The notes beneath the pieces are model-generated. The model saw nothing but the letters and a program-made list of their open reading frames with translations. It was not told where the DNA came from and searched no databases. 64,000 nt of DNA, taken from Paraburkholderia aromaticivorans (GTDB lineage: Bacteria; Pseudomonadota; Gammaproteobacteria; Burkholderiales; Burkholderiaceae). Where the stretch lies: the NCBI RefSeq assembly GCF_002278075.1, contig NZ_CP022990.1:2232001-2296000 (forward strand), read 5' to 3'. Below are positions 36,017 through 62,151 of this stretch, one piece after another (within the stretch, counting starts at the first letter, position 1; each line of letters opens with the position of its first letter). A program made the position numbers and the translations under genes.

Positions 36017-38761
36017 ATGTCCGAATCCATTGAACGTTCAGTAGACGTACGCGTCTCCCCCAGACTCGCAATCGAACCCGTAACCGGCACGAGATTGATT
36101 CCGCCTCGGGCGGCACGCCAGCTGATGCCGCGCGAAGCCTTGATGGCGCGCCTGCTCGAAGCGCGGCGGCAGCGTTGCGTGGTGATTCAGGGGCCGGCCG
36201 GCAGCGCCAAAACCAGCACGATGCTGGCCCTCAGGCAAGCCATGTTGACGCTGGACTTCGACGTGGCCTGGCTTTCGCTCGCGCCGGAAGACGACGACCT
36301 CACCGCGTTCTTCCACGGCCTGCTCGCGAGCCTTGCCAGCGTGGATCCGGCGATCGCGCGCGAAGCGGAGTTACTGGTCGGCCGTGAAAGCGACGAGACC
36401 GCGGTCGAGCACTGGGTGATCACGCTCGTTCGCGGTATCGCTCGCCGCAAGCGCGAACTGGTCCTGATGCTCGACGACGTGCATTACCTGCAGAACGCCC
36501 GGATTCTCGAGGCCATGCGCTGGCTGCTCGACTACGCGCCACCACAGCTTCATGTCGTGCTGGCTTCACGGCGTGCGCTGCCCGTCTCGCTGGCGCGTCT
36601 GCGCTCGCAAGGTCTGGCGACGGAACTCGACCGGCAGGATCTGCGCTTTTCGCCCGAAGAGTCAGAGCGGTTCTTGCGCGAGCAACTCGGCGACATTGCA
36701 AAACGGGACGCGCAGGTCGTGCACGAACTGACCGACGGCTGGGCGGCGGGTCTGCAATTGTTCGCGATCGACCTGAAGACGCGCAAAGGCGCGGCGTTCG
36801 CGCCTGCAACGGTGCGTGATGCCGAGACCTTCGCGCGCTACTTCGAACGCGAGGTGCTGGTGCGCCTCGCACCCGAAGACCTTCTTCTGCTCACTCGCGC
36901 GGCGCTGTGCGAACGATTTTGCGCACGCCTGTGCGCCAGCTTGATGCAACCTTTAGACGCCGTGGGAGACGTCGCCTCCCGACTCAGCCGCCTGGAAGGC
37001 GACAATCTGTTCATCACCCAGATTGGTGTCGGCCAGGACGGTGAAACCTGGTACCGCCTGCATCCGCTGCTGCGCGAAGTCCTGCAGCGCCGGGTCGCCG
37101 GATTGCCGGCCGCGCAACTGCGCGAACTGCATGCCGCGGCCTGGCAGTGGCTCAGTGTGCAAGGCTATGTCGACGAAGCCGTGCATCACGCCGTGCTGGC
37201 AGACAACGCACAGGCCGCCGCGGACCTCGTGGAAGGTTGCGCGCACGACCTGCTCGCGCGCGGCGAACTGCGGCAGCTTGCGGGCCTGGTGCGCCGGTTG
37301 CCCGCGGCGCAGATTGCGGGGCGTTTCGATCTGCGTGTCATCACCGCCTATCTGCAAATGTATGCGGGGCAAACCGATGCCCTGATGCAGAGTATCCAGC
37401 AGATAGCGTCGCGCAGCGAGCGGCCGGACCCGCGTCAGCGCTACGCGCTCGCGCTGCTTCGCGGCGGCCTCGCGCTACAGCGCGACGACACGGATTCGGT
37501 CGTGGCGCTGTTGCCGGAACTGCAGCGCGTTCCCGCGGATGCCGACGATTTCACCCGTGCGGGTCGCGGCAATATCCTCTCGTGGATGTTCATCCATCGT
37601 GGCGAATACGAACAGGCGCGCAAGGTGCTGGAGGAGGGGGCGCCGCATGGCGGCGCGCCGCGCGGCATCCTGTTGGGTCGTTGCATGAGCGGTATGACGC
37701 ACGCCGCCGAGGGACAGGTGCTACTCGCCGAGCGGGTGTTCTGCGAGGTGCTGGCGGAGGCGGAGAAACAAGGGCCGGCCTATGTCGGCATTGCGTGCAT
37801 GGCCGCGGCGCTGCTTGGCGAGGCGCTTTACGAACTGAACGATGTCGACGCCGCGCTCGGACTGCTGGACGCGCGCATCGACGTGCTCGAACGCGTGTCG
37901 ATTCCGGACACCGTACTGCGGGCGCTCGTGGTGCTCGCCGGCGCACACTGGTTCGCGGGCCGTCGGCTGGAGGCGCGCGACTATCTCGAACGACTCGAAG
38001 ACTACGCGAAGCGTCATGGCGTGGATCGCCTGCTCGCCAACGCATTGTGTTTGCGCTCACGCTGGCTGCTGGAGGAAGGCAGTCTCGACGAAGCCGAGGC
38101 GGCCTTGCTGCGTTGCGAAGCGCTGGCGGCGCGTTATGCCGGCGCGGTGCGCAGCACGGCGTGGGAAATCAGCGTCTGCGCCGATCTCGCGCGCATTCGC
38201 ATGTGCCTGCATCTGAACGACTTCGACGGCGCGATGAGCCGGCTGAAACCCCTCAGTGCGCTGTCGGAAGCCGGAGGGCGGTGGTGCCGCGTCGCCGGGT
38301 TGCGCGTGCAGATGTCGATTGCCGAGAAGGGGCGCCACAACGAGAGAGCGGCGCGTGAGCATCTCGTCGGGGCGTTGCGTCTGGGGCACCGGCTCGGGCT
38401 GATGCGCAGTCTGCTGGACGAACTCGGACCCTATCGGCGAATTCTCGACCCTCTGCCGTTGGAACAGGATTTCGATCCCGTGCTTGGCTTCTATGCTCAG
38501 CGATTGATCGACGCCGGCGAGGCAACCGCGCCCGCCGCGCCGCAAACGGCCGCGGTGCACGTGCCGATCCAGTCGCTCAGCGAACGGGAAAACGAGGTGC
38601 TCGGTCTGCTGGCGCTCGCGCTGCCGAACAAGAAGATTGCGCGGGTCATGGACGTTTCGCTCGATACGGTGAAGTGGCACCTCAAGAACATCTACAGGAA
38701 GCTGGAAGTGTCCGGGCGTGACGGCGCCGTCGCAAAGATGCGCGACGCGAGCGCGCGCTAG
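36017..38761 (+). CDS. MalT-type LuxR transcriptional activator 1
   Basis: A 914-residue STAND ATPase regulator. It has an N-terminal NTPase with a Walker A-like GPAGSAKT (59-66) and Walker B LVLMLDDVH (~150), a winged-helix linker, helical TPR-like repeats (~360-800) as sensor, and a LuxR HTH at the C-terminus (LSERENEVLGLLALALPNKK, then [16 protein letters not shown]). The second glycine of Walker A is Ala64, unlike its paralogue at 59317. MalT-type proteins bind ATP and an inducer, oligomerise and activate promoters. It ends 154 bases before the first dehydrogenase of the rightward arm. No clear ribosome site precedes the ATG. Confidence 0.9.
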   Translation: MSESIERSVDVRVSPRLAIEPVTGTRLIPPRAARQLMPREALMARLLEARRQRCVVIQGPAGSAKTSTMLALRQAMLTLDFDVAWLSLAPEDDDLTAFFHGLLASLASVDPAIAREAELLVGRESDETAVEHWVITLVRGIARRKRELVLMLDDVHYLQNARILEAMRWLLDYAPPQLHVVLASRRALPVSLARLRSQGLATELDRQDLRFSPEESERFLREQLGDIAKRDAQVVHELTDGWAAGLQLFAIDLKTRKGAAFAPATVRDAETFARYFEREVLVRLAPEDLLLLTRAALCERFCARLCASLMQPLDAVGDVASRLSRLEGDNLFITQIGVGQDGETWYRLHPLLREVLQRRVAGLPAAQLRELHAAAWQWLSVQGYVDEAVHHAVLADNAQAAADLVEGCAHDLLARGELRQLAGLVRRLPAAQIAGRFDLRVITAYLQMYAGQTDALMQSIQQIASRSERPDPRQRYALALLRGGLALQRDDTDSVVALLPELQRVPADADDFTRAGRGNILSWMFIHRGEYEQARKVLEEGAPHGGAPRGILLGRCMSGMTHAAEGQVLLAERVFCEVLAEAEKQGPAYVGIACMAAALLGEALYELNDVDAALGLLDARIDVLERVSIPDTVLRALVVLAGAHWFAGRRLEARDYLERLEDYAKRHGVDRLLANALCLRSRWLLEEGSLDEAEAALLRCEALAARYAGAVRSTAWEISVCADLARIRMCLHLNDFDGAMSRLKPLSALSEAGGRWCRVAGLRVQMSIAEKGRHNERAAREHLVGALRLGHRLGLMRSLLDELGPYRRILDPLPLEQDFDPVLGFYAQRLIDAGEATAPAAPQTAAVHVPIQSLSERENEVLGLLALALPNKKIARVMDVSLDTVKWHLKNIYRKLEVSGRDGAVAKMRDASAR

Positions 38762-38790
38762 CCGTCTTCCCGCTCGCAGCCATCTGTCCA

Positions 38791-38825
38791 CCCGCCCCCA
38801 CTCCACGGGGGTAGGCTCGCTCCCC
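38791..38825 (+). promoter_or_regulatory. G/C-tract dyad upstream of the rightward catabolic operon
   Basis: CCCG-C-CCCC, then CTC, then GGGGGTAGG and CTCGCTCCCC. The C and G runs form an inverted repeat (CCCCC, 7 bases, GGGGG). It is 91-125 bases before the GTG of the first dehydrogenase gene. An ungapped comparison with 63130-63164 before the porin gives 24 identical positions of 35 by eye. Candidate activator site for a MalT-type regulator. Confidence 0.5.
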
Positions 38826-38915: not shown

Positions 38916-40055
38916 GTGGAAGTCAAACGTAATGTCTATCGCGAGGATCACGAGATGCTGCGTGAAACCGCGCGGCGTTTCTTCGAACGGGAATGCCTGC
39001 CGCGGCAGGCGCAGTGGGACGAAGCCGGCTGCGTCGATCGCGAGACCTGGCTGAAGGCCGGTCGGGAAGGTCTGCTGTGTGTGACCGTTCCGGAAGAGTA
39101 CGGCGGCGGCGGCGGCGATTTCGGCCATTCGGCCATCGTCGCCGAAGAGCTGCACCGTGCGGGCGTATCGGGCTTCAGCTATTCCGTGCACTCCGACATC
39201 ACCGCGCCCTACATCGTTCGCCTTGGCACGGAGGAGCAGAAGCGCAACTGGTTGCCGCCCATTTGCCGCGGCGAAAAGATCCTTGCGATTGCGATGACCG
39301 AACCCGGCACGGGCTCCGATCTGAAGTCGATCCGTACTACCGCGGTGCGCGACGGCGACGACTACGTCATCAACGGCAGCAAGACATTCATCTCCAACGG
39401 CCTGAACTGCGACATGGTGGTGGTGGTTTGCAAGACCGACCCGTCGGCGGGCGCGAAGGGCGTGAGCCTCATCATGGTTGAAACCGACCGCGCGGGTTTC
39501 CGCCGCGGCCGCAAGCTCGAAAAAGTGGGGCAGGCGGCGGCGGATACCGCCGAACTCTTCTTCGACAACGTGCGCGTACCGGCAGGCAACCTGATCGGCA
39601 ACGAGAACGGCGGCTTCATCCATTTGATGGAAGAACTGCCGCAGGAGCGCCTGATCATCGCGGTGTATTGCGCCGCGAAGCTGGAGCGGCAACTCGAACT
39701 GACGTTGCAATACGTGAAGGACCGCCGCGCTTTCAATCAGACCGTGTGGGACTTCCAGAACACCAAATTCAAGCTGGCCGATGTGAAGGCGCAAGCCGTG
39801 GCGGTCCGCACGCTGGTCGACTACTACATACGCGAGCATATGGAGCGCAAGCTCACGCTGCAGGAAGCGGCCATCGCCAAGCTGTTCGCGACCGAAGCGA
39901 TGTGGAAGTGCATCGACGAAATGGTGCAGTTGCATGGCGGTTACGGCTACATGCTGGAGTATCCGATTGCTCGCGCTTTTGCCGACATGCGCGTCACGCG
40001 CATTTTCGGTGGGACCAGCGAAGTCCTGCGGGATCTGATCTCGCGCAAGCTTTAA
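38916..40055 (+). CDS. LCAD-type acyl-CoA dehydrogenase (paralogue 1)
   Basis: A 379-residue FAD enzyme that makes a 2,3-double bond in an acyl-CoA, passing electrons to ETF. The catalytic base sits where it does in long-chain (ACADL) and isovaleryl-CoA dehydrogenases: Glu244 in [10 protein letters not shown]. The usual IYEGT glutamate position is glycine (IFGGTSEV, Gly365). ACADL-type enzymes accept branched substrates. The GTG start at 38916 has GAGGAG upstream and gives the same length as its close paralogue at 56041; the frame is open further upstream, but that extension is GC-biased filler. First gene of an eleven-gene rightward set, 26 bases before the thiolase. Confidence 0.93.
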
Positions 40056-40081: not shown

Positions 40082-41269
40082 ATGAGCGAAAAAGTACTGG
40101 TGGCGGGCGTCGGCATGATCCAGTTCGCCAAGCCCGGCGCGAGCCAGAGCTACACCGAAATGGGCGCCGAAGCGACCCGCCGCGCGCTGGCCGATGCGGG
40201 CATTGCGTACGACCTCGTACAGCAGGCGTTCGCCGGCTACGTCTACGGGGACTCTACGTGCGGACAGACCGCGATCTACGAAGTGGGCATGACGGGCATT
40301 CCGATCGTCAACGTCAATAACAACTGTTCGACGGGTTCGACCGCGCTCTATCTCGCACGCCAGGCGATTGCCACCGGCGACGCCGACTGCGTGCTCGCGC
40401 TCGGCTTCGAGCAGATGCAGGCCGGTGCGTTGAAATCGCACTGGGACGACCGGCCGGTGACGCGCGCGCGCTTCGTGCCGATCATGCACGGCCTGACCGC
40501 CGACCTCGCGCATCTGCCGCAGGCGTTACGCACGTTCGGCGGCGCGGGACGCGAGCATATGCAGCGTTACGGCACGCGCATGGAAACCTTCGCCGCGGTG
40601 CGCGCCAAGGCGAGCCGCCACGCGGCGAACAACCCGCTCGCGCTGTTTCGCAAACAGGTCACGACCGAAGACGTGATGAACGACACGGTGCTGATGCCCG
40701 GTGTGATGACGCGTCTGATGGCCTGTCCGCCCACTTGTGGCGGCGCGGCGGCAATCCTGGTCTCCGAGAAGTTCGCGAAGAAGCATGGCTTGCGCACGGA
40801 TGTGCAGATCGTTGCGCAGTCGCTCACCACTGATCCGCCTGCGTCCTTCGATCCGCCGTCGATGTTGAACTACGTCGGCACGCACATGACGCGTTCGGCC
40901 GCGAACAAGGTCTACGAGAAAGCCGGTATCGGGCCGGAAGACATCGACGTGTGCGAACTGCACGACTGTTTCGCGCACAACGAAGTCATCTGCTACGAAT
41001 CGCTCGGCTTCTGTCCGGAGGGCGGCGCGGAGAAGTTCGTCAGCGACGGCGACAACACGTACGGTGGCAAGGTGGTGGTCAATCCGTCTGGCGGCCTGCT
41101 TTCCAAGGGGCATCCGTTGGGCGCGACCGGCCTTGCGCAGTGCTACGAGTTGACCCACCAGCTGCGCGGCACCGCCGACCAGCGTCAGGTGCAAGGCGCA
41201 AGACTCGCGCTTCAGCACAATCTCGGCCTTGGCGGCGCGTGCGTGGTGACGTTGTACGGCAAGCACTGA
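40082..41269 (+). CDS. SCPx-type thiolase (paralogue 1)
   Basis: A 395-residue thiolase of the sterol-carrier-protein-x/lipid-transfer group, starting MSEKVLVAGVGMIQFAKPGA. Nucleophile Cys82 lies in NVNNNCSTGSTAL. The active-site histidine is in ELHDCFAHNE, another conserved His in SKGHPLGATGLAQC, and the last block is GLGGACVVTLY. This group cleaves 3-oxoacyl-CoAs, including 2-methyl-branched ones that classic thiolases handle poorly. It lacks the C-terminal SCP2 domain of the animal fusion. A close paralogue is at 54825. Located directly after the dehydrogenase. Confidence 0.92.
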   Translation: MSEKVLVAGVGMIQFAKPGASQSYTEMGAEATRRALADAGIAYDLVQQAFAGYVYGDSTCGQTAIYEVGMTGIPIVNVNNNCSTGSTALYLARQAIATGDADCVLALGFEQMQAGALKSHWDDRPVTRARFVPIMHGLTADLAHLPQALRTFGGAGREHMQRYGTRMETFAAVRAKASRHAANNPLALFRKQVTTEDVMNDTVLMPGVMTRLMACPPTCGGAAAILVSEKFAKKHGLRTDVQIVAQSLTTDPPASFDPPSMLNYVGTHMTRSAANKVYEKAGIGPEDIDVCELHDCFAHNEVICYESLGFCPEGGAEKFVSDGDNTYGGKVVVNPSGGLLSKGHPLGATGLAQCYELTHQLRGTADQRQVQGARLALQHNLGLGGACVVTLYGKH

Positions 41270-41341: not shown

Positions 41342-42277
41342 ATGCAGCAGCTCTGCAAGAATCGCGTTGTAGTCATCACCGGCGCCGGGCGAGGCCTGGG
41401 GCGCGAATATGCTCTGGAGTTCGCCCGCCAGGGCGCGAAAGTCGTCGTCAACGATCTCGGCGGCAAGGGGGACGGGTCGGGCGCGGCGAGCGGCCCCGCG
41501 CTCGAGGTGGTTGCCGAAATCGAAGCGCTCGGCGGCGAAGCCGTTGCGAACTTCGATGACGTGGCCGACTGGAACGGCGCCAGGAACATGATCGACACGG
41601 CCATTTCCGTCTTCGGCGGGCTCGACGTGCTGGTCAACAACGCCGGTATTCTGCGCGATCGCACGCTCGCCAACATGAGCGAGGAAGACTGGGATTCGGT
41701 GATTCGCGTGCACATGCGCGGCACCTTCGCGCCGTCGCGCCACGCTGCCGCGTACTGGCGCGACGAGGCCAAGGCGGGTCGCGAGCGCGTGGCGCGGCTC
41801 ATCAACACCAGTTCGTCGTCGGGGCTGTATTGCAATGCGGGCCAGGCCAACTACGGCGCGGCAAAGGCGGGCATCGCGGCAATGAGCGTGATTGCGGCGC
41901 GTGAGCTGGAGCGCTATGGTGTGACCGTGAATGCGATCTATCCGACCGCGATGAGCCGCCTCACCGAAGACATCTTCGCAAAGCGTCGCGACGAATTCAC
42001 CGCGGGCGCCGCACCGGGCTTCGATCCGCTGGACGCCGGCAACGTCGCGCCACTGGTGGCATGGCTTGGCAGCGGTGCGTCGAGCGGCATCACCGGGCGT
42101 GTGTTCGGCGTGCGCGGCGGTCGTATCACGGTGGCCGAAGGCTGGCATGCCGGTCCGCGCATCGAAAAGGACGGGCGCTGGGATGCGGCCGAACTCGGCG
42201 CGTTGATACCGGGGCTGGTGGAACAGGCCGCGCCGAATGCGTTGACCTCGGGCGAGATTCCGGCGACGGTGGCGTAA
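41342..42277 (+). CDS. SDR, 17beta-HSD4/MFE-2-like 3-hydroxyacyl-CoA dehydrogenase
   Basis: A 311-residue short-chain dehydrogenase. The NAD site is VVITGAGRGLGREYALEFA (~10-29), and NDLGG plus a glycine/serine insert (38-51) is the signature of the MFE-2/17beta-HSD4 group. NNAGILRDRTLANMSEEDWD follows. Catalytic Ser158, Tyr171 and Lys175 lie in SSSSGLYCNAGQANYGAAK. MFE-2 enzymes oxidise (3R)-hydroxyacyl-CoAs, including bile-acid intermediates. It follows the thiolase by 72 bases. Stereochemistry and substrate are inferred from the subgroup. Confidence 0.88.
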   Translation: MQQLCKNRVVVITGAGRGLGREYALEFARQGAKVVVNDLGGKGDGSGAASGPALEVVAEIEALGGEAVANFDDVADWNGARNMIDTAISVFGGLDVLVNNAGILRDRTLANMSEEDWDSVIRVHMRGTFAPSRHAAAYWRDEAKAGRERVARLINTSSSSGLYCNAGQANYGAAKAGIAAMSVIAARELERYGVTVNAIYPTAMSRLTEDIFAKRRDEFTAGAAPGFDPLDAGNVAPLVAWLGSGASSGITGRVFGVRGGRITVAEGWHAGPRIEKDGRWDAAELGALIPGLVEQAAPNALTSGEIPATVA

Positions 42278-42313: not shown

Positions 42314-43882
42314 ATGAGCGGAACCCCGAAGTACCTCGGCGACCATGCCGGTTTGACGCCGGATAAGGCTGCCGCGATCAATAGCACGAGCGGCGAGGTC
42401 CTGACCTATCGCGAACTCGACGAGCGGTCCAATCGCTTCGCGCAATGTCTGTACGCGGCCGGGCTGCGGCGTGGCGACCCTATCGCCATGGTGCTCGAGA
42501 ACAACATGCGCTGCTTCGAGCTCGCATGGGCCGCGCTGCGCTCCGGTCTGACGATCACGCCGGTCAACCGCTTCCTGACCGCGGCGGAAGCAGCCGGCAT
42601 TATCGAGGACAGCCAGGCGAGGGTGGTGGTCAGCTCGTATGCCATGCGCGAACTCGCGGCCGAACTGACCGGCCTGATGCCGACGTGCCGTCTGCGGTTG
42701 ATGGTCGACGGCACCATTGCCGGATGGGACAGCTACGAAGCCCTCACCGGCCGGTATCCCGCAACGCGCCTTGCCGACGAATGGCTGGGCGCCATGATGA
42801 TTTATAGCTCGGGCACGACCGGCCGTCCCAAAGGCATCATTCGCGCGCAACCCGCCGGCCGGGTGACCGAAGGTTCCGGCTCCGCACGCCGTCCGCAATT
42901 CGAGCGCTATGGCTTCGACGCGCAAACGGTGTATCTGTCGCCGGCGCCGCTCTATCACACTGCACCGCTCGGCTACGGAATCGAAACGCAGTTCGGCGGC
43001 GGCACCGTGGTCTTCATGGAGAAGTTCGATCCACTCGAAGCGCTGCAAGCAATCGAGCGCTATCGCGTCACGCACAGCCAGTGGGTGCCGACCATGCTGA
43101 TCCGCCTGCTCAAGCTCAGCCCGGCCGTGCGCAGCGCATTCGACCTGTCGAGCCATCGCGTGGCGATTCATGCGGCCGCACCGTGTCCGCAGGAGATCAA
43201 GCGGCAGATGATCGACTGGTGGGGGCCGATCATCGAGGAGTATTACTCGTCGACTGAAGGCAATGGCGTGACCGCGCTCAATACCGGGGAGTGGCTCGCG
43301 CATCCCGGTTCGGTCGGCCGCGCGCTGCTCGGCGTCATTCATGTCTGCGACGACGACGGCAACGAGTTGCCGGCCGGCGAAACCGGAACCGTCTATTTCG
43401 AGCGGGACCAGTTGCCGTTCCATTACCACAACGACCCGGCCAAGACCCGTGCCGCGCAACATCCCCGCCATCCGGCCTGGACAGCGGTCGGCGACATCGG
43501 TCATGTGGATGAGGACGGCTATCTGTATCTGACCGATCGCAAGGCGTTCATGATCATTTCGGGTGGCGTCAACATCTATCCGCAAGCAATCGAAGACGCG
43601 CTGGCCGTGCATCCCGATGTGCAGGATGCGGCGGTGATCGGCGTGCCGGATGCCGAGATGGGCGAGCAGGTCAAAGCGATTATCGAACCGGCGCCCGGCG
43701 TGGCGCCGTCGGACGCGCTTGCGGAACGGCTATTGGCTTACCTGCGCACGCGCGTGGCGCGCTATATGGTGCCGCGCTCGATCGAGTTCATCGACGCGAT
43801 GCCGCGGCTGCCTACCGGCAAGCTGTACAAGCAGGCACTGCGTGAGCGCTATGGCGCGCGAGCGGAGCGCGCGGGGTCTTAG
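42314..43882 (+). CDS. Acyl-CoA ligase (ANL superfamily), FadD3-like
   Basis: A 522-residue AMP-forming ligase. P-loop MMIYSSGTTGRPKG is at 161-174, the aromatic/acid motif YYSSTEGNG near 312, the hinge region DGYLYLTDRKAFMI near 405, and the catalytic-lysine motif PTGKLYKQAL near 502. It would activate a carboxylic acid to its CoA ester in the cytoplasm, supplying the dehydrogenases. GGAGAG precedes the ATG. One of three ligases in the island. The acid substrate is unknown; proximity to SDR, SCPx thiolase and racemase suggests a branched or polycyclic acid. Confidence 0.9.
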   Translation: MSGTPKYLGDHAGLTPDKAAAINSTSGEVLTYRELDERSNRFAQCLYAAGLRRGDPIAMVLENNMRCFELAWAALRSGLTITPVNRFLTAAEAAGIIEDSQARVVVSSYAMRELAAELTGLMPTCRLRLMVDGTIAGWDSYEALTGRYPATRLADEWLGAMMIYSSGTTGRPKGIIRAQPAGRVTEGSGSARRPQFERYGFDAQTVYLSPAPLYHTAPLGYGIETQFGGGTVVFMEKFDPLEALQAIERYRVTHSQWVPTMLIRLLKLSPAVRSAFDLSSHRVAIHAAAPCPQEIKRQMIDWWGPIIEEYYSSTEGNGVTALNTGEWLAHPGSVGRALLGVIHVCDDDGNELPAGETGTVYFERDQLPFHYHNDPAKTRAAQHPRHPAWTAVGDIGHVDEDGYLYLTDRKAFMIISGGVNIYPQAIEDALAVHPDVQDAAVIGVPDAEMGEQVKAIIEPAPGVAPSDALAERLLAYLRTRVARYMVPRSIEFIDAMPRLPTGKLYKQALRERYGARAERAGS

Positions 43883-43923: not shown

Positions 43924-45081
43924 GTGAACAACCTGTTGGATGCTTTTCACCTGACGGCGCTGCCCGCCGCGGCTGAAGCCTTCCGCGCGGAAGTGAAGCA
44001 CTTTCTCGGCGAACACTTGCCGCCGGCGCCGGTCGACATTCGAGCGCGTTCCTGGATGGGCTTCGACGCGGACTTCAGCCGACGCCTTGCGGCGCGCGGC
44101 TGGATCGGCCTGACCCTGCCGGCCAGTTACGGCGGCGCGGGCATGGACGCGTTCCGCCGCTTCGTGCTGGTCGAGGAGCTGTTGGCCGCGGGTGCGCCGG
44201 TCGCCGCGCACTGGATCGCCGACCGTCAAAGCGGTCCGCTGATTCTGCGCTACGGCACCGAGGCGCAGAAGGACTTCTACCTGCCGCGCATCTGCGCCGC
44301 GAGCGCGTTCTTCTGTATCGGCATGAGCGAGCCCGACTCGGGCTCCGATCTCGCAAGCGTGCGTACACGCGCAGTGCGCCGCGATGGCGGCTGGCGCCTG
44401 ACCGGGCGCAAGATCTGGACGACCAACGCGCAGCATTGCCAGTACATGATCGCGCTCGTGCGCTCGTCGGGCGTGGCGGAAGATCGGCAGAAGGGCCTGT
44501 CGCAGTTCATCGTCGATCTGTCCTTGCCCGGCGTCGACGTGCGGCCGATCGTGGACCTCACCGGCGACGCTCACTTCTCCGAGGTGACTTTCGACGACGT
44601 CTTTCTCGCCGACGATGCGTTGATCGGCGACGAGGGCGCCGGCTGGCATCAGGTGACGGCCGAACTGGCGTTCGAACGCAGCGGCCCCGAACGGCTCTAT
44701 TCGAGCGTCGTACTGCTCGACTGCTGGCGCGCGCAATTGCGCCGCGACGGCGCCAACGACGCCGAGCTCGCGTTGCTCGGCAGCTTTGCGACGCAGCTCG
44801 CCACGCTGCGCTGCCTGTCGATCGCGGTCACCGCGCGACTCGCGCACGGTGAAAGCCCGGTGGTCGAGGCGGCGCTCGTCAAGGACATCGGCACCGAGTT
44901 CGAACAGGCGATTCCCGCGCAACTGGAGGCCGCGATCAGCGCGAACCCCGCGCAGACCCTCGACCCCGAGCTGTATCGCACGGTGGCCTACCTCAGCCAG
45001 ATTTCACCGACCTTCTCGCTGCGCGGCGGTACGCGCGAAGTGCTGCGCGGCATGATCGCGCGCGGTCTTGGCTTGCGCTAA
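43924..45081 (+). CDS. Acyl-CoA dehydrogenase, catalytic (alpha) subunit of a probable heteromer
   Basis: A 385-residue acyl-CoA dehydrogenase of the type that pairs with an unequal partner, as in steroid and bile-acid side-chain degradation. FAD-contact segments CIGMSEPDSGSDLASVRT and KIWTTNAQHCQYM are present. A candidate base is Glu256 (FERSGPERLYSS), aligning with the Glu of LCAD-type enzymes; Glu251 is an alternative. The IYEGT site reads LRGGTREVL. The partner gene starts 26 bases downstream. The GTGA-rich leader has a GGAGTGAG site before the ATG. Confidence 0.88.
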   Translation: MNNLLDAFHLTALPAAAEAFRAEVKHFLGEHLPPAPVDIRARSWMGFDADFSRRLAARGWIGLTLPASYGGAGMDAFRRFVLVEELLAAGAPVAAHWIADRQSGPLILRYGTEAQKDFYLPRICAASAFFCIGMSEPDSGSDLASVRTRAVRRDGGWRLTGRKIWTTNAQHCQYMIALVRSSGVAEDRQKGLSQFIVDLSLPGVDVRPIVDLTGDAHFSEVTFDDVFLADDALIGDEGAGWHQVTAELAFERSGPERLYSSVVLLDCWRAQLRRDGANDAELALLGSFATQLATLRCLSIAVTARLAHGESPVVEAALVKDIGTEFEQAIPAQLEAAISANPAQTLDPELYRTVAYLSQISPTFSLRGGTREVLRGMIARGLGLR

Positions 45082-48729: not shown

Positions 48730-48872
48730 CCGGCCTCGCTACCCGGCCAGGGTGGTCCGGTTTGCTCCGCGTTCTGGCTTACTTCTACTCAGGCCACGCC
48801 GATCCAGGATCGGTGCCAACGAACAGCGGTGCGCCACGCGCGCCGTCATGCAAAACGGAGACTGGAGGGACG

Positions 48873-52924: not shown

Positions 52925-53014
52925 GGTGGGTTGGGCTCCGGAAGACGTCGGCCAACTGACGAGGCGAGTGAGCGAGCGGCGCGAAGCGCCAGCGCCCAGT
53001 CGTCGAAGTGCAAA

Positions 53015-53929: not shown

Positions 53930-54346
53930 TTACAGGGCGATCACGGCGTCGCCGAGGACGCGCGGTTCGCCATATTGATTGGCCGTTTGAATCTCTACTT
54001 TCACGCGGCGCTCGCCATCGGCCTCGAACTTCTCGACGACCCGGCCACTGCACGTGATCCGGTGTCCGAGATGCGTGATGCCGACGAAGCGCACGCCGAA
54101 GTGCCGCAGTTGCCGCTGATCGACCCAACCGTTCAGCAAGCGCCCCACGTACGCCATCGACAGCATGCCGTGAGCGAATACGTCGGGCATGCCGCTGCGG
54201 CGCGCGAAATCGAGATCGATGTGGACCGCGTTGTGATCGCCCGAAGCGCCGGCAAAGAGCGCCAGCGTCGTGCGGTCGATGGGCGCGAGCGTCAGCGGCG
54301 GCAGCGTGTCGCCCACCTTGATGTCGTCGAAGCTCAATGTGCTCAT
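53930..54346 (-). CDS. MaoC-type hot-dog dehydratase, small subunit
   Basis: A 138-residue single hot-dog domain with the hydratase-2 motif: FAGASGDHNAVHIDLDFARR, where Asp and His are the catalytic pair, then VFAHGMLSMAYVGRLL. It would hydrate 2-enoyl-CoA to the (3R)-hydroxyacyl-CoA. GGAGAC is before the ATG. It lies 10 bases after its likely partner (54357-54797), and the two half-proteins probably form one heteromeric hydratase, as in ChsH1/ChsH2-type or HadAB-type systems. Confidence 0.85.
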   Translation of the reverse strand: MSTLSFDDIKVGDTLPPLTLAPIDRTTLALFAGASGDHNAVHIDLDFARRSGMPDVFAHGMLSMAYVGRLLNGWVDQRQLRHFGVRFVGITHLGHRITCSGRVVEKFEADGERRVKVEIQTANQYGEPRVLGDAVIAL

Positions 54347-54356: not shown

Positions 54357-54797
54357 TCAGCGGTTGCGGTGGACCAGCACACTGCGCAGATCGGCCACAT
54401 GCTCGCCTTTCTGGTTGGTCACGCGTGTTTCGCGTACTACGAAATCGAGTGCGCCGCCTTTCTTGTCGTAGATATCGGCAATGTGGCATTCGAACAGCAG
54501 CACGTCGCCGGCATAGGCCATCCGGTGATAGGCGAACGACTGTTCACCGTGCAGGATGCGCGCGACCTGAATGCCGATCTCGTCGCGCCAGCTCTTGTCC
54601 GGCTGCTCCAGTTCGAGTGAGAACAGGAAGGTGGGCGGCAACGGCAGATTCGGGTGGCCGGCGTCGCGAGCCGCGGATTCGTCGACGTAGATCGGGTTGG
54701 TTTCGCCGGTGGCTTTGGCGAAGAACCGCAACCGGCCCGCCTCGGCCACGGTGCGAAACGCGGGAACGACTTTGCCGATGTGTTTTTTATCGATCAT
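54357..54797 (-). CDS. FAS1-like/MaoC N-terminal hot-dog protein, partner subunit
   Basis: A 146-residue hot-dog protein of the MaoC_dehydrat_N (FAS1-like dehydratase) type: FFAKATGETNPIYVDESAAR, PPTFLFSLELEQ and LHGEQSFAYHRMAYAGDVLL. These domains resemble the non-catalytic half of two-domain hydratases and hold substrate; the catalytic Asp-His pair is in the neighbouring small subunit. It precedes that gene by 10 bases, so co-translation and complex formation are expected. GGAG lies upstream of the ATG. Confidence 0.82.
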   Translation of the reverse strand: MIDKKHIGKVVPAFRTVAEAGRLRFFAKATGETNPIYVDESAARDAGHPNLPLPPTFLFSLELEQPDKSWRDEIGIQVARILHGEQSFAYHRMAYAGDVLLFECHIADIYDKKGGALDFVVRETRVTNQKGEHVADLRSVLVHRNR

Positions 54798-54824: not shown

Positions 54825-56009
54825 TTACGCGGCCTTGTACACGGTCGTGACGCATGCTCCGCCGAGCCCCAGATTGTGCGCAAGCGCGACCTTCGCGCCT
54901 TCGACCTGGCGTTGCTCGGCAGTGCCGCGCAGTTGATGCGTCAGTTCGTAGCACTGCGCGAGACCGGTAGCGCCCAACGGATGCCCCTTCGACAACAGGC
55001 CGCCCGACGGGTTGACCACCCACTTGCCGCCATACGTGTTGTCGCCGTCGTTGACGAGCTTTTCCGCTTCGCCCTCTGCGCACAGACCCAGACCTTCGTA
55101 GGTCAGCAGCTCGTTCTGCGCGAAACAGTCGTGCAGTTCGATTACGTCGATGTCTTCCGGACCGACGCCGGCCTGCTCATAAGCGAGCTTCGCGCCGGCG
55201 CGCGTCATGTCGAAACCGACCACGCGGATCATGTCGCGCGAGTCGTACGTGCTGGGCAGGTCGGTGGTAAGGGACTGGCCGGCAATCAGCACGTCGGTGC
55301 GCAAGCCGCGTTGGCGGGCGAACTTCTCCGACACCACGATGGCCGCAGCCGCGCCGCAGGTCGGCGGGCACGCCATCAGACGGGTGAGCACGCCTTCCCA
55401 GATCATCGGCGACGCCAGCACTTCTTCCGGCGTCACGACGGTGCGGAACACGGCCAGCGGATTGCGGGCCGCGTGCCGGCTCGCTTTCGCGCGAATCTTC
55501 GCGAACGTTTCGAGCTTGGTGCCGTACTTCTCCATGTGAGCCCGGCCCGCACCGCTGAACTGACGAATCGCGCCCGGCAGGTCGGTGCGATCCACCAGTT
55601 CGTTGACCAGATTCAACGCACGTTCGAGCGCGGGTGCACGGTCGCTCCATTTCGACGACAGCGCGCCTGGCTGCATGAATTCGAACCCGACCGCGAGCGC
55701 GCAATCGACCGCGCCGCTTTGCACCGCCTGGCGCGCGAGGAACAAGGCCGATGAGCCCGTCGCGCAGTTGTTGTTCACGTTGATGACGGGAATGCCGGTC
55801 ATGCCGACGTGATAGAGCGCTTTCTGACCGCAGGTCGAATCGCCGTACACATAGCCGGCGTAGGCCTGCTGCACTTCCGCGTAATCGATTCCCGCGTCGG
55901 CCAGTGCTTCGCGCACAGCGCCCGCGCCCATTACGTCGTAGGGGTCGCTGGTGCCGGGCTTTTTGAACGGAATCATGCCGACACCGGCGACGAACACGTT
56001 ACGAGTCAT
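54825..56009 (-). CDS. SCPx-type thiolase (paralogue 2)
   Basis: A 394-residue thiolase closely similar along its full length to the gene at 40082. The nucleophile is in NVNNNCATGSSAL, with ELHDCFAQNE, SKGHPLGATGLAQC and GLGGACVTTVY also shared. The central part (SSKWSDRAPALERALNLVNE) differs most and probably shapes substrate choice. The start at MTRNVFVAGVG has AAGGAG upstream. In the leftward operon it stands between the dehydrogenase and the MaoC pair. It would release a shortened acyl-CoA plus acetyl- or propionyl-CoA. Confidence 0.92.
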   Translation of the reverse strand: MTRNVFVAGVGMIPFKKPGTSDPYDVMGAGAVREALADAGIDYAEVQQAYAGYVYGDSTCGQKALYHVGMTGIPVINVNNNCATGSSALFLARQAVQSGAVDCALAVGFEFMQPGALSSKWSDRAPALERALNLVNELVDRTDLPGAIRQFSGAGRAHMEKYGTKLETFAKIRAKASRHAARNPLAVFRTVVTPEEVLASPMIWEGVLTRLMACPPTCGAAAAIVVSEKFARQRGLRTDVLIAGQSLTTDLPSTYDSRDMIRVVGFDMTRAGAKLAYEQAGVGPEDIDVIELHDCFAQNELLTYEGLGLCAEGEAEKLVNDGDNTYGGKWVVNPSGGLLSKGHPLGATGLAQCYELTHQLRGTAEQRQVEGAKVALAHNLGLGGACVTTVYKAA

Positions 56010-56040: not shown

Positions 56041-57180
<1,140 letters not shown>

Positions 57181-57225: not shown

Positions 57226-59106
57226 TTATCGCGCGCGGGCGATATGCGCTGCAGGTTCCGGGTGGTAGAGCTGTTCGATCAGATGGGCACGGCGTGCGCG
57301 GGTCACGGCCTGGTTCACGTAGCCTTTTTCGGCAATCTCATTGGCGTCGATCGAAGGGGGTTCGGCCATCAGCATCAAGCGTTCAATGGTCCGGCTGGCG
57401 CCGCCGCCTTTATGGCCGGCGAGACGTTCGCGCAGCGCGGCGACCACGACCGGATGCTCGACCAGCGCGGCCGCGTCGAGCTCGGCGAGTTCGGGTGCAA
57501 GGCGCCGGCAGGCGGCGACGTTCGGCCAGGCCAGCGCGGCGAGAAATTCGTGGTCGTGGCCGCAGATCACGGCATCCGAGATGAGCGGAGCGCATAGATC
57601 GAGCAAGCCCAGCCGCACCGCGCCGGTTCGCACCCAGGTTCCGTTCGTCAGCTTGAAGTCTTCGACCACCCGGCCGGCGAAGAGCAGGCCCTCGGCCGGG
57701 TCTTCCGGATTGGCGAGGCGCACGGCATCGCCGAGGCGGAAGTAACCTTCGTCGTCGAACGCGGCGGCGGTGAGCGCGGCATTGCCGATATAGCCGGCAA
57801 ACACATTCGCGCCGCGCATGCGGATTTCGTAGCGGCCGTCGCCGCCTTCGAGCGGCAGGAGCTTCACCTCGGAGCCCGGCACTGGGCCGCCGATGTTGCC
57901 GAGATCGCTCGAAGGCCAGCCGCAGTAGGTGCCCATGCCGCTCGTTTCGGTGCAGGCAAGGCCCGTGGAGAAGACGATGCGCTTGCCGATGGTATCCACC
58001 GCCACACGCTGGATGCGATGCCACACGTCCGACGGCAAGCTTGCTCCGCCGTAGCCGAAATACTGCACATTGGCGAACAGGCTGCGCGCGAGCACGGGGT
58101 CGCGCTCCAGTTCACCTGCCAGCACCGCCCATGCGGAAGGCACGCTGGTGAAAACCGTGGGCGACACTTCACGCAGGTTGCGCACGGTGCGTTCGATCAG
58201 ACCAGGGACCGGGCGGCCGTCGTCGATATAGTGAGTCGCGCCGAATTGCACGGAGCGCCCGATGTTCAGCACGCCGCCAAGGCCGTGGTGCCACGGCAGC
58301 CAGTCGAGAAACACCGGTTGCGATTCGCGCAGCCAGCCGAGATTGTCGGCGTAGTAGGCGGCGACCGCCTTGAAGTTGCGGTAAGCAAGCGGCACGCCTT
58401 TCGGCGTTCCGGTCGAGCCCGACGTGAAGAGGACGCGGACGGTGTCGTCCTTACGGATGGCCGCGTGCGCCGCGGCAACGGCGGCGACGCGCGCCGGCGT
58501 CATCTCGGCGGCCAGCAGGTCGGCCCATGCACGTTGCGAGGGTTGGACGTTGTGTGCGGCGATGACCGGCGTTGCCGCCAGTTCGTCGATTGCGAGCGCG
58601 CGTTCGAACGAGGCCGCGTCCTGCACGAACACGGCTGCGGGCGGCACCAGTTCGAGCACGCCTTTCAGGCGCGCGAAGTTTTTGCTGAGCGTGGAATAGG
58701 CTGGTGAAACCGGTGCGGCAGGAATGCCGACATACTCGGCCGCGAGCAGAAGCACCGCCTGTTCGATCGAATTGCCCGAGAGCAGGACCAGTGGACGCTG
58801 CTGGCCAAGGCCCATTTCGAGCAGGCACGCAGCGACCGTTTGCAACTGACGCCACAGGTCGCGCCAGCTGATCGTGCGCCATGCGCCGCTGCCGTCGCGT
58901 TCGCGGAACGCCGGACTATCGCCGCGGCTCTCGGCCCATTCGGGAATGAAATCGGCGAAGCTGTTGTGCGCGATGTCGGGGGGCGGGCTGGCGGAACTCA
59001 GCATCAACGTGCCGTCGGGGCGGCGTTCGACGCGCGGACGACGTTCCGGAAAGCGTACGGGACGGTAAGGGGCTGCCGTGTATTCACTAGCCATGAGCGT
59101 AGTCAT
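57226..59106 (-). CDS. Feruloyl-CoA synthetase-like acyl-CoA ligase
   Basis: A 626-residue AMP-forming ligase of the Fcs subgroup, longer than usual ligases. It opens with YRPVRFPERRPRVERRPDGT. The P-loop VLFTSGSTGTPKG is at ~225-237, followed by FLDWLPWHHGLGG, the acid motif GLACTETSG and FAGRVVEDFKLTNGTWVRTG, a block typical of Fcs. The canonical C-terminal catalytic lysine is replaced by the Fcs-type ending NEIAEKGYVNQAV, with lysine in EKGY. It would activate a cinnamate-like or arylalkanoic acid. AGGAG precedes the start; the frame is open 41 codons further without a site. First gene of the leftward operon after the regulator. Confidence 0.88.
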   Translation of the reverse strand: MTTLMASEYTAAPYRPVRFPERRPRVERRPDGTLMLSSASPPPDIAHNSFADFIPEWAESRGDSPAFRERDGSGAWRTISWRDLWRQLQTVAACLLEMGLGQQRPLVLLSGNSIEQAVLLLAAEYVGIPAAPVSPAYSTLSKNFARLKGVLELVPPAAVFVQDAASFERALAIDELAATPVIAAHNVQPSQRAWADLLAAEMTPARVAAVAAAHAAIRKDDTVRVLFTSGSTGTPKGVPLAYRNFKAVAAYYADNLGWLRESQPVFLDWLPWHHGLGGVLNIGRSVQFGATHYIDDGRPVPGLIERTVRNLREVSPTVFTSVPSAWAVLAGELERDPVLARSLFANVQYFGYGGASLPSDVWHRIQRVAVDTIGKRIVFSTGLACTETSGMGTYCGWPSSDLGNIGGPVPGSEVKLLPLEGGDGRYEIRMRGANVFAGYIGNAALTAAAFDDEGYFRLGDAVRLANPEDPAEGLLFAGRVVEDFKLTNGTWVRTGAVRLGLLDLCAPLISDAVICGHDHEFLAALAWPNVAACRRLAPELAELDAAALVEHPVVVAALRERLAGHKGGGASRTIERLMLMAEPPSIDANEIAEKGYVNQAVTRARRAHLIEQLYHPEPAAHIARAR

Positions 59107-59217: not shown

Positions 59218-59290
59218 GCTCGTGGCCACGAGCGAACCACCCGAGGTGGGTAGCGAGGCGGGATGCAGCAGAGGGGTGAGGGACTACCCG
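59218..59290 (-). promoter_or_regulatory. Palindromes and G/C tracts upstream of the leftward operon
   Basis: Three elements lie in 59107-59316. GCTCGTGGCCACGAGC (59218-59233) is a perfect 16-bp palindrome. CCACC-CGA-GGTGG (59237-59249) continues into GTAGC and is a shortened form of the dyad at 35874-35894. A G-rich segment ending in CTACCCG is at 59271-59290. They are 112-185 bases before the Fcs-like ATG, a fitting place for MalT-type activation. No exact match to the enterobacterial MalT box is present. Confidence 0.5.
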
Positions 59291-59316
59291 GAGGAACACG
59301 TAAAGAGGCAGGCGCG

Positions 59317-62151
59317 TCAGTCGGTCTCTTCACCGGCAACGGGCGTCGAGCCCAGTTCGAGATCGCGCACGCGTGCCACAGCCTCGTCACGGCTGGTCAC
59401 GCCGAGTTTGCCGTAGATGTTCTTCAGATGCCACTTGACGGTCTCTGGCGAAATGCCGAGCGTGCGGGCAATCTTCTTGTTCGGCAATGCCTGTGCAAGC
59501 AGGCCGACAACCCGTGTTTCGCGCTCGCTCAGCGTCTCGGCGGCAGTGGGCGGCGCGCTTCGGCTGGCGGGTTTGACGGCCGGCTCCGCGCCGCTAGCCG
59601 AGGTGGCCTTTCGCGCCGCTTGCAGCCGGTTCACATAGAAGGACAAAACCGGATCGTGCGCCTCGCTTTTCACCACCGTGGTAATGAGATCCAACGCGCC
59701 GGGGTCGGCGTCGAGCAAGCCGCGCACGAGCCCCAGCCGGTGGCCTCGGCGCAGCGCGGCGAGCACGGCTTCGCGCGCGGCGTCGGGCCGACCGCGCCGG
59801 GCGTCGACGATGGCGGCTTGCATCTGGAAGTGCGCAATGTGCCGTTGCCAGCCGCGCGCTTCGCAGAATGGGATCAGTGCCTGAAGACGGCTCGCGGCGC
59901 CCTCGAAATCCTCGTGGGCGATACACCAGTTGATGTGCGAGCGCTCCGCCATGGCGTGGATTTCCGCGGCAGTGCCTGCCGCCGTGGCCACCACGCGGGC
60001 CGCGATCATGTCGAGCCGGGCGAGGCCGGCTTCCGCTGCATCGAACTGACCGCTCAGCAGATGGCGATGAATCTGCTCGGCCAAGCTATGCGCGACGAGC
60101 CGTGGCAAGCCGTACTGCGTCGCGTATTCTTCGAGGCGCTCGAGATACGCGAAGGCGTCGAGGCGATGTCCCGCTTCCCAATGAACCGCCGACAGCACAG
60201 TCAGCACCCGCAATACGGAGTCGGGAATCGACACGCGTTCGAGCACGTCGACACGGTCCTCCAGGAGTTTGCGGGCCGCGTCGAATTCGTTGAATTCGTA
60301 CAGCACTTCGCCGAGCAGCGCCGCCGCGAAACACGCCGCTTCGGCGGCCGCGCTGCCGAGTTGATCGGCTTCAAACAGAACGTCGCGACTGATGCGCTCC
60401 ACCTGAATGAACCTGCCCTCCAACGCGTAGCTGAAGCCGGCGATGCAGCGGCCGTTCAGCGTGCCGGCCGGCGTGCCCACGAGCGGTGCGCCGCTCACGA
60501 GCGGTCGCGGCGCCTCGCTCTGAACGCGCCGCGCTTCATCGTATTCACCGCGGCGCATGTAGATCCACGACAGCAGATTGTTGCGGGCGCCTACGGTGAG
60601 GCTGTCGGCGTGAGCGGGGATTTGCCGCAGGTGCGGCAACACCGATATCGCCTCGTCCGTGTCGTCGCGCTGGACGGCCAGAGCGACCTGCAACAGGATC
60701 AGCCGGTAGCGCGAATTCGCATCGCTTTCGGGGATATCCAATTGCAGGCGCGCGATGGCTGCGGCGCATGCATCAAATTCACGCGCATACAGTTGCAGAT
60801 GCACCATCCACAGGCGCAGTCCGATACGCGACTGCACTTCGGCGAGCGGAAGCATGCGTATCAGCCTGACCAGCTTGCGCAGGTCGCCTTCGATCTGCAT
60901 GGTCCGGGCAACGCGTAGCACGAGATCGGCGGCCGCGGCCGGCTCGCCCGCGAGTAACGCATGGCGCACGGCGTCGTCGGGCTGGCGATGGTCGCGAAAC
61001 CAGATCCACGCCGCCAGATGCACCTCGCGCTGGTGCAGTTCGCTGCGTGCACGAAAACGCTCGAGCAGCGTCTCGCGAAAGAGCGGGTTCAGCCGATACC
61101 AGGTCTCGCTACCCGAACTCTCGATCGGCGCGATGAACAGGTTGTCGTTGTCCAGTCTGGTCAGCAACGCCCGCACTTCGGCAGGCGACTGCCTGTCGCC
61201 GATCAATGCGATGCACAGCGGCGCGCATACCCGGGTGCAGCTCGCCATCCGCACCAGCATCTCCACCTCGGGAGGCGCAAGGCGCGACAGCACTTCGCGT
61301 TCGAAATACGCGGCAAAGCCGCGCGCGTCCAGAAGTTGGGTGTTCGCAAGCGGATCTGACGGTGCGAGATCCGTTGTGCCTTGCTTCTTTCCTTTCAGAC
61401 GCATGGCGAAGAGTTGCAGTCCCGCCACCCAGCCGTCGGTCAATTCGTGCATGTGACGCGCTTCGCGCTGGCCGATTTCGCCCAACCGGGCCTTGAGGAA
61501 GGCTTCGGATTCGGCGGCCGTGAAACGCAGATCGCGCATGTCCAGTTCCAGCACGAGGCCCTGGTCGCGTGGGCGTCCCAGCGAAAGAGGCACCGTGCCG
61601 CGCGAGACGAATACCAGATGGAAGTTCGCCGGCGCGTAGTCGAGCAGCCATTGCAATGCTTCGTGATTGCGGGCGTTGGCAACGTGATGCAGGTCGTCCA
61701 GCACCAGCACCACATCGTTCGAATGCGCGGCGATACCGCGCACGAGGGCGATGACGGTGCGCTCGACCGCTTCGTCGTCCATACCGCGGCCGCCCAGCAA
61801 GGTCGCTTCGTGGCACATCGCCGGGTCGACCTGAGCGAGGCTGGCAACGAGGTAGTCGAGAAAATGCGCCAGTTCGTTATCTTCCGGCACGAGTGTCAGC
61901 CAGGCGATATCGAAACCGAGCGAAAGCAAAGCTTCGCGCCAGGCGATCAGCAGCGTCGTCTTGCCGCAACCGGCAGGTCCTTGAAGCACGACGCACCGGT
62001 TGCGCCGAGCGTCGAGTAACTGGGCTAGCAGTCGTTCGCGCGCGACGACGCGGGCGGTACTGCGCGGCGCAATCAAACGGGGATCAGCTCGGGATTCCGC
62101 GGCGCCGCCTTGGGAGCGGCGTGGGTCCACGGGAGGGGAATTCTGCGGCAT
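59317..62151 (-). CDS. MalT-type LuxR transcriptional activator 2
   Basis: A 944-residue paralogue of the regulator at 36017, similar over the whole length. Walker A is the consensus GPAGCGKT (58-65), Walker B is [10 protein letters not shown], a TPR-like sensor fills the middle, and the C-terminal LuxR HTH is [20 protein letters not shown] followed by [16 protein letters not shown]. The NTPase start [20 protein letters not shown] aligns closely with the first regulator. It precedes the Fcs-like operon on the same strand by 210 bases. It probably activates the leftward arm and perhaps the rightward one; the inducer is unknown. Confidence 0.9.

Follow-up and report, generated by a model that had tools for sequence, protein, structure and literature searches.

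Peroxisomal branched-chain β-oxidation relies on α-methylacyl-CoA racemase (AMACR), a branched-chain oxidase or LCAD, MFE-2, and SCPx; AMACR is required for 2-methyl-branched (or 2-aryl) acyl-CoAs, and SCPx takes 2-methyl-3-oxoacyl-CoA. Here, we describe a catabolic island of Paraburkholderia aromaticivorans in which a racemase, LCAD-type dehydrogenases, an MFE-2-type SDR, and SCPx thiolases occur together, along with two paralogous LuxR/MalT-type regulators, R1 and R2. The island lies in a 64,000-nucleotide stretch of an 8.9-Mb genome (positions 2,232,001 to 2,296,000 of contig NZ_CP022990.1, assembly GCF_002278075.1), the whole of which we refer to as the window. In contrast to the peroxisomal system, the island proteins are separate, the dehydrogenases are presumably coupled to electron-transfer flavoprotein (ETF), and the MaoC hydratase comes as a pair.

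The regulators resemble the AlkS/LAL catabolic activators in their N-terminal ATPase, their MalT-like TPR region (in R1), and their C-terminal LuxR helix-turn-helix (HTH). According to passages of PMC8784404, two AlkS proteins recognize a site that is located ahead of the promoter and contains an inverted repeat of 20 bp, and one AlkS can cross-activate in another species. The island differs in having two paralogues in one locus and in the length of its palindrome (17 bp), and its predicted targets are acyl-CoA enzymes, not alkane monooxygenases. Actinobacterial sterol side-chain clusters (ChsE, ChsH, Ltp2) likewise combine paired acyl-CoA dehydrogenases, MaoC hydratases such as the ChsH1-ChsH2 of sterol side-chain degradation (excerpts of PMC6678751), and a lipid-transfer-type thiolase; the island departs from them in its LuxR/MalT-type regulators, in a full SCPx-type thiolase, and in that no ring-degradation genes were recognized in it. 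The Rhodopseudomonas pim operon for dicarboxylate β-oxidation is a further point of comparison: The dehydrogenases ADb and ADc of the island score against the PimC and PimD models, but at 157 and 61 bits versus cut-offs of 624 and 653 they are not members, and an assignment as PimC/PimD was dropped. No title or abstract opening listed from the open PMC literature, for which the operator letters were not used as a query, described the cluster, the regulator pair, or the operator; nor did passages of the Cupriavidus metallidurans CH34 genome paper (PMC2864759) give a relevant account, and the plasmid records of CH34 and Caballeronia insecticola carry no annotation at the locus. The enzyme families are known, and so are AlkS-like regulators with inverted-repeat sites. 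What appears new, as a variation on known branched-chain catabolism, is the regulon with its operator, together with the decoupling of layout from ancestry.

A palindrome shared by both arms of the island

On the plus strand, the island reads from the left R1, dehydrogenase AD1, thiolase TH1, SDR1, ligase L1, ADb, ADc, the crotonase-type ECH, ligase L3, racemase, and the ETF subunits ETFB and ETFA; on the minus strand, it reads from the right DUF2889, R2, ligase L2, AD2, TH2, the MaoC-type MAO1 and MAO2, SDR2, and MBL (Table 1). The coordinates, strands, and gene order of the initial annotation were borne out when the window was re-examined. Its bounds, 36017..62151, enclose the genes it named, but the unit is larger, with one operator starting at 35876 and a right-hand operator and five genes outside the window. 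We consider it reasonably probable that both arms form a single regulon for the uptake and β-oxidation of an α-methyl-branched carboxylic acid arriving as, or through, an alcohol, under R1 and R2. Gene content, trees, palindrome distribution, and co-occurrence are the observations on which this reading builds.

Both arms carry the 17-bp palindrome CYACCC-N5-GGGTRG, which emerged as a conserved block when the intergenic regions preceding AD1, L2, and R1 were aligned for eight island genomes, and whose centers lie 110-139 bp upstream of the start codons. At up to two mismatches, the window contains 11 matches at 8 places (three were counted on both strands) versus 2.31 expected, a number reached by none of 100 shuffled controls; three of the places fall outside the island gaps (16933, 47211, and 57666). 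The exact pattern occurs at four sites in the whole genome, all within 35 kb, compared to one for the reversed-pattern control. Three of these sites precede R1, the racemase, and L2, and the fourth lies at C2:2302781, 6.8 kb past the window, between an MFS-GMC oxidase-TauD-aldehyde dehydrogenase operon and a divergent ETF-ubiquinone oxidoreductase gene. These five genes (aldehyde dehydrogenase, TauD-family dioxygenase, GMC oxidase, MFS transporter, and ETF-ubiquinone oxidoreductase) occupy G000:C2:2296993-2304957; in the other island genomes that were mapped, including that of C. insecticola, the porin is again flanked by this block, complete or in part. A palindrome of this rarity predicts which genes belong together, including the five outside the window.

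In the eight Paraburkholderia genomes with the island, the operator before R1 (O1) is exact in seven, that before AD1 (O2) has one mismatch in all eight, and that before the racemase (O3) is exact in all eight. Of 31 distinct regions upstream of L2, 27 have an exact copy of the operator at this position (O4); random windows contained an exact site in 102 of 6200 cases, a control that was drawn from the same loci and thus includes real operators. Among 141 Paraburkholderia genomes, the mean number of sites was 3.10 in the 29 with an AD module (0.76 for the reversed pattern) versus 0.55 in the 112 without one (reversed, 0.69), and three or more sites were found in 20/29 versus 3/112 genomes (Fisher p = 1.5e-14, uncorrected for kinship). 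In 9 of 11 Pseudomonas genomes, exact sites stand before AD1, between the racemase and the R2-type regulator, and before AD2, and these account for 27 of the 38 exact sites in those nine genomes; this trio of exact sites is also present at three further Pseudomonas loci. A related one-mismatch form, CTCCCCG...GGGTAG, occurs at several loci of other types whose regulators belong to the R1 clade. Both arms are probably controlled through the same palindrome by two related regulators.

Two related LuxR/MalT-type regulators

R1 and R2 are 48% identical, aligned over nearly their full length, and their domains place both among the LuxR/MalT-type ATP-dependent (LAL) regulators. The C-terminal LuxR-type HTH (GerE, PF00196) passes its cut-off in both proteins. 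The N-terminal ATPase of R2 matches AAA_16 at 43.5 bits (cut-off 32.6), and that of R1 passes with AAA_22 (28.8 bits, cut-off 27) and scores 29.6 bits with AAA_16, under that model's cut-off. The MalT-like TPR region passes its cut-off in R1. MalT itself was ruled out as an identity for either protein, with 252 and 268 bits against an NCBIfam equivalog cut-off of 537. Of the 54 residues of the HTH segment, 37 are identical between R1 and R2, including a 10-residue string present in both. The two are probably activators with nearly the same recognition helix, and the position of the sites together with the HTH similarity suggests that both bind the palindrome.

The Walker A motif reads GPAGCGKT in R2 and GPAGSAKT in R1. 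The variant GPAGS(A/S)KT occurs in eight of nine island-type R1 rows (the window, six of the seven other Paraburkholderia islands, and Cupriavidus numazuensis), and the R2 rows in which a Walker A motif was found keep the Gly before the Lys. This change may affect ATP switching in R1.

Nested distribution and changing layouts

We defined AD1-type genes as those with at least 81% identity to AD1; a group at 78-79% identity (for example, G775, with no other listed copy, and Variovorax G285) falls outside this definition, and its inclusion would alter the counts. AD2-like second copies were called by gene map in all eight Paraburkholderia, three Caballeronia, and seven Cupriavidus genomes and in part of Pseudomonas, and the remaining Pseudomonas copies by identity (73-77% to AD1), strand, and distance only. 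The genome searches score few candidates per genome, and the locus listing of relatives comprises at least 80 loci. Within this set, all 35 AD1-type genomes also carry an AD2-like copy (Paraburkholderia 8/8, Caballeronia 3/3, Cupriavidus 7/7, Pseudomonas 15/15, and Variovorax 2/2). Both arms, with AD1 at 95% identity or more, are present in 8/144 Paraburkholderia genomes, and a right core without an AD1-type gene in 19/144, with AD2 78-93% identical; such lone right cores also occur in Caballeronia. Because an AD1-type gene was never seen without an AD2-like copy, and right cores alone are common, the data suggest that the left core relies on the right one, to which it would add a further stage or further rounds of the same pathway. 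With the operator shared and the distribution nested, it is very likely that the two arms function together.

The arms could instead be two parallel pathways for two related substrates with a common inducer, rather than successive stages of one, given that either arm comes with a complete set of regulator, one or more ligases, dehydrogenase, hydratase, SDR, and thiolase and, in Cupriavidus, occupies its own place in the genome. We regard this as rather unlikely in view of the one-sided co-occurrence described above and of the single R2-type regulator that stands between both cores in Pseudomonas. The initial annotation had offered both possibilities, two related substrates or successive rounds of one; the nested distribution fits successive rounds better than two unrelated substrates, without proving them.

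The arrangement of the arms varies between genera. AD1 and AD2 face inward on opposite strands of the same contig in all eight AD1-bearing Paraburkholderia genomes and in 3/3 Caballeronia genomes with AD1 at 95% identity or more, including plasmid p1 of C. insecticola, so the mirror order recurs throughout the AD1-bearing genomes of the genus and in a second genus. In Pseudomonas, where an AD1 of 81-83% identity was found in 11/298 genomes, a second copy was present on the opposite strand at a distance of 8-12 kb in 11/11, with the two facing outward; the left core AD1-TH1-ADb-ADc-ECH is conserved between Pseudomonas and Paraburkholderia. The seven Cupriavidus genomes with AD1 at 85% identity or more all have right arms as well (six of these loci were fetched and mapped, the seventh being L024). 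Their arms are ~200 kb apart on one contig in three genomes (G680, G740, and G767), the only ones that show the separation, and on different draft contigs in the other 4/7. The mirror layout is accordingly one of at least three arrangements of the pieces, and the locus offers a case of paralogous catabolic modules that retain a common control signal despite a reshuffled layout.

History of the paralogous cassettes

AD1 and AD2 share 74% identity over 379 amino acids (aa), with equal lengths from the chosen starts, and TH1 and TH2 share 68% (395 and 394 aa), which, with the full-length similarity of the regulators, confirms the lengths and likenesses reported initially. At the DNA level, the AD-TH block forms a single inverted match of 2.35 kb at 72% identity (E reported as 0, far beyond chance). 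Regulator, dehydrogenase, and thiolase are mirrored as described, but SDR1 and SDR2 are of different kinds (37% identity over 206 aa only) and are not part of the mirror image. The pairs are supported as paralogous, and in either arm the adjoining dehydrogenase-thiolase cassette is an old one.

Paralogous triplets in mirror order and the inverted 2.35-kb match are what would be expected if one arm had been copied from the other inside the island in this lineage and had then diverged, as the initial annotation proposed. The trees, however, split the members of each pair, whose usual neighbors also differ, which is the outcome that the initial annotation had named as its own refutation. In the AD tree (70 rows), the island AD1 groups with C. 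numazuensis (support 99) and then, less firmly, with the Pseudomonas and Variovorax copies (88), and the closest companions of the island AD2 are right cores that stand alone in Paraburkholderia, Caballeronia, and C. numazuensis (96). A clearer picture comes from the TH tree (61 rows), which lacks Pseudomonas TH2 rows since those loci were cut short: TH1 joins C. numazuensis, Variovorax, and Pseudomonas (100), and TH2 joins Paraburkholderia, Caballeronia, C. numazuensis, Variovorax, and a single Hyphomicrobiales contig (95). R1 (17 rows) and R2 (34 rows) stand on opposite sides of a fully supported branch. In approximately unbiased (AU) tests, a single clade of the two island copies was rejected both for AD (lnL 151 lower, p = 6.7e-5) and for TH (lnL 250 lower, p = 1.3e-56). 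The trees were made with a quick method, with Shimodaira-Hasegawa approximate likelihood-ratio (SH-aLRT) values as the only support and a long-branch warning, and the TH outgroup does not form one side of a branch; near-identical or partial rows (7 AD, 5 TH, and 6 R), the duplicate loci L025, L026, and L029, and AD rows below 65% identity, except for eight outgroups, were omitted.

The trees refute a duplication within the Paraburkholderia/Caballeronia lineage of the island. Copying inside the island, against which the closer match of AD2 to lone right cores elsewhere (78-93%, compared to just 74% with AD1), the separated arms of Cupriavidus, and the outward-facing arms of Pseudomonas also speak, is extremely improbable. 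Judging from the trees and the differing layouts across genera, the duplication of the AD-TH cassette very likely predates its acquisition by Pseudomonas, Variovorax, Cupriavidus, Caballeronia, and Paraburkholderia. The mirror layout is a later juxtaposition of two old sister modules, and the story of a local duplication gives way to a testable regulon.

Enzymes and proposed pathway

The enzyme set as a whole resembles that of branched-chain β-oxidation, with a racemase, LCAD-type dehydrogenases, hydratase 2, hydroxyacyl dehydrogenases, SCPx thiolases, and ETF. The best solved relative of the racemase is 1x74 (MCR) at 400 bits, compared to only 134 bits for the best CoA-transferase, and the equivalents of His126, Asp156, and Glu241, residues with established catalytic roles, align with 1x74, with the corresponding motifs present. 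Both thiolases pass the cut-off of PRK08256 (682 and 690 bits for TH1 and TH2, cut-off 436) and contain the NNNC, GHPLGATG, and GLGGAC motifs that hold the Cys/His/Cys active-site residues of thiolases; TH1, the sole thiolase query in the search of the PDB, matched the SCP2-thiolase 6hsj at 456 bits. AD1, the member of the AD1/AD2 pair used as a PDB query, matched 2pg0 (401 bits) and then human LCAD, 8w0t (365 bits), and both AD1 and AD2 have at position 241 the LPQER motif, whose Glu has a known functional role in acyl-CoA dehydrogenases. SDR1 passes the PRK07791 cut-off and resembles the SDR part of MFE-2 enzymes (2et6 at 323 bits, HSD17B4 at 181 bits, and 3qlj), and SDR2 is FabG-like with scores under the NCBIfam cut-offs. 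MAO1, a FAS1/MaoC-type dehydratase, and MAO2 are two adjoining MaoC-superfamily genes that may act as a heteromeric hydratase pair. An identity of L2 as feruloyl-CoA synthase was dropped, since the nearest NCBIfam model, PRK12582, falls under its cut-off.

From this content, we infer the substrate class, the order of reactions, and protein binding and activation as follows. The porin and the MFS transporter encoded outside the window would import the substrate, and the GMC oxidase, the TauD-family dioxygenase, and the aldehyde dehydrogenase would yield the acid, from which the ligases L1, L2, and L3 would form the CoA thioester. The racemase would turn the 2-methyl group into the form accepted by the dehydrogenases; desaturation by AD2 (or AD1, or ADb/ADc), hydration by the MaoC pair (or ECH), and oxidation by SDR2 or SDR1 would follow, and the SCPx thiolases TH2 and TH1 would release propionyl-CoA in methyl rounds and acetyl-CoA in others. 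Electrons would leave via ETF and the co-regulated ETF-ubiquinone oxidoreductase. The right arm would provide the basic cycle, and the left arm would be an add-on extending it. R1 and R2, probably as activators, would bind the palindrome before the operons, so that both arms would respond together. The racemase, along with alcohol- and aldehyde-oxidizing enzymes that seem to be under the same control, makes a methyl-branched alcohol or acid the most likely substrate; steroid side chains and 2-arylpropionates are possible as well. The regulon would offer a route to the inducer and the substrate of an AMACR/SCPx/LCAD-type pathway that recurs in several soil-bacterial genera.

AMACR and SCPx thiolases also serve sterol side chains, and the island might accordingly degrade a steroid, bile-acid, or terpenoid side chain, with the ring-degrading genes located elsewhere. 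ADb resembles 4x28 and Tcur3483, which have a steroid role, MAO1 weakly matches ChsH1/ChsH2, and L147 contains, near the C. numazuensis left arm (10857-12626), an FAD enzyme of the ketosteroid/oxocyclohexene dehydrogenase kind, which passes the cut-off of PRK06134 but stays under those of the ketosteroid models. We nonetheless judge a steroid-type role improbable: No ring-degrading gene was recognized among the island genes, although this weighs little, as annotation of the flanking genes was incomplete and the survey did not extend to the remainder of the genome.

Several points weigh against a single branched-chain regulon as preferred here. The entry enzymes vary by lineage, with TauD/GMC in Burkholderiaceae, whereas Pseudomonas has a sulfatase, Zn-dependent alcohol dehydrogenase (Zn-ADH), and DUF1302/DUF1329; the pathways may thus begin from different substrates. 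Members of the racemase family act on 2-arylpropionyl-CoA as well, so a branched aliphatic chain is not the sole option. Three Paraburkholderia genomes (G227, G237, and G256) have at least three exact sites without an AD match at E 1e-165, and two Pseudomonas genomes, G286 and G555, have only one-mismatch forms, and no exact sites, in the three gaps of the locus. The Cupriavidus AD1 loci have an exact copy near R1 in 2/7 cases, only a one-mismatch form in 4/7, and none in 1/7 (G680), and the mapped right-arm loci of this genus have one-mismatch forms only (6/6). In the AD tree, lastly, the right-type dehydrogenases of Pseudomonas and Variovorax sit at an unresolved fork and not firmly with the island AD2.

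A broader version of the branched-chain regulon is tentative, and we give it less than even confidence. This otherwise undescribed regulon of Burkholderiaceae, Comamonadaceae, and Pseudomonadaceae would correspond, in bacteria, to the branched-chain pathway of peroxisomes; its two ancient paralogous dehydrogenase-thiolase cassettes would act as alternating stages, for methyl and non-methyl rounds, and its one 17-bp operator would be read by one regulator (Pseudomonas) or by two paralogous LuxR/MalT regulators (Paraburkholderia, Caballeronia, and Cupriavidus). If so, the same control logic has been kept through at least three physical layouts.

The Pseudomonas sulfatase and the TauD-family enzyme led us to consider sulfated or sulfonated substrates. 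The TauD-family protein is closest to an annotated taurine dioxygenase, 5vn6, and falls under the NCBIfam taurine dioxygenase cut-off, so sulfated or sulfonated substrates stay a lead. Sulfatase genes lie beyond SDR2 in three Pseudomonas loci (L148 8726-10357, L141 14433-16019, and a matching gene in L138); PF00884 was found in the two that were scanned, the copies are 91-93% identical to that of L148, and they hint at sulfate-ester substrates. The Pseudomonas left core (L149 8508-17904) is followed by DUF1302, DUF1329, a further MalT-type regulator, an aldehyde dehydrogenase (identified by eye), Zn-ADH, and acyl-CoA dehydrogenases.

Feature coordinates and neighboring loci

Table 1. Features of the island and its right flank, in window coordinates.
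Feature	Position	Strand	Remarks
Operator O1 CCACCCGAATCGGGTGG	35876..35892	.	Upstream of R1, center 133 bp before start codon
R1, LuxR/MalT-type ATP-dependent regulator	36017..38761	+	914 aa; R1 clade in regulator tree
Operator O2, one mismatch	38798..38814	.	R1/AD1 gap, center 110 bp before AD1
AD1, LCAD-type acyl-CoA dehydrogenase	38916..40055	+	379 aa; LPQER motif at 241
TH1, SCPx (SCP2-thiolase type) thiolase	40082..41269	+	395 aa
SDR1, MFE-2/HSD17B4-type hydroxyacyl-CoA dehydrogenase (predicted)	41342..42277	+	NCBIfam and PDB matches
L1, acyl-CoA ligase	42314..43882	+	Nearest models PRK13390 and FadD4, under their cut-offs
ADb, acyl-CoA dehydrogenase	43924..45081	+	Top PDB matches 4x28 and 6wy8/6wy9
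ADc, short acyl-CoA dehydrogenase	45108..46109	+	Nearest IpdE2 model, far under cut-off; probable ADb partner
ECH, crotonase-type enoyl-CoA hydratase/isomerase	46198..46992	+	NCBIfam profile search
L3, acyl-CoA ligase	47173..48729	+	NCBIfam profile search
Operator O3 CTACCCGGCCAGGGTGG	48739..48755	.	Center 126 bp before racemase
CAIB, α-methylacyl-CoA racemase (AMACR/MCR type)	48873..50027	+	1x74, E 1.6e-118
ETFB, electron-transfer flavoprotein beta subunit	50072..50821	+	Named from sequence; no NCBIfam match at 1e-30
ETFA, electron-transfer flavoprotein alpha subunit	50832..51776	+	
MBL-fold hydrolase	51848..52930	-	Between arms; mapped in only some island genomes
SDR2, FabG-like hydroxyacyl-CoA dehydrogenase (predicted)	53081..53905	-	NCBIfam, under cut-offs
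MAO2, MaoC-type hydratase subunit	53930..54346	-	
MAO1, MaoC/FAS1-dehydratase-type subunit	54357..54797	-	
TH2, SCPx thiolase	54825..56009	-	394 aa
AD2, LCAD-type acyl-CoA dehydrogenase	56041..57180	-	379 aa
L2, acyl-CoA ligase	57226..59106	-	Near PRK12582, 680 bits vs cut-off 777
Operator O4 CTACCCACCTCGGGTGG on - strand	59237..59253	.	Center 139 bp before L2
R2, LuxR/MalT-type regulator	59317..62151	-	944 aa; R2 clade in regulator tree
DUF2889 protein	62282..62938	-	Directly before R2, same strand; adjoins R2 in many right-arm loci
Weak operator-like site, two mismatches	63137..63153	.	DUF2889/porin gap
Outer-membrane porin	63290..64000	+	Continues past window end

To the left of the island, a GDSL lipase gene (34687-35706) diverges from R1 across the gap that holds O1, and also adjoins R1 in G171, G258, and G278. 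Further LCAD-SCPx loci with R1-clade regulators were seen at L005, L007, L008, L110-L111, L112, and L113, several with a variant operator; at L005, two dehydrogenase-thiolase cassettes stand back to back as a pair of its own. Among the 11 genomes searched, C. numazuensis (G280) gave the highest number of AD2 matches at or below E 1e-165, with seven. A plasmid of Cupriavidus oxalaticus T2 that is typed as conjugative (L136) carries several LCAD/SCPx modules with a LuxR regulator and CaiB proteins, together with citryl-CoA lyase and tripartite-tricarboxylate binding proteins.

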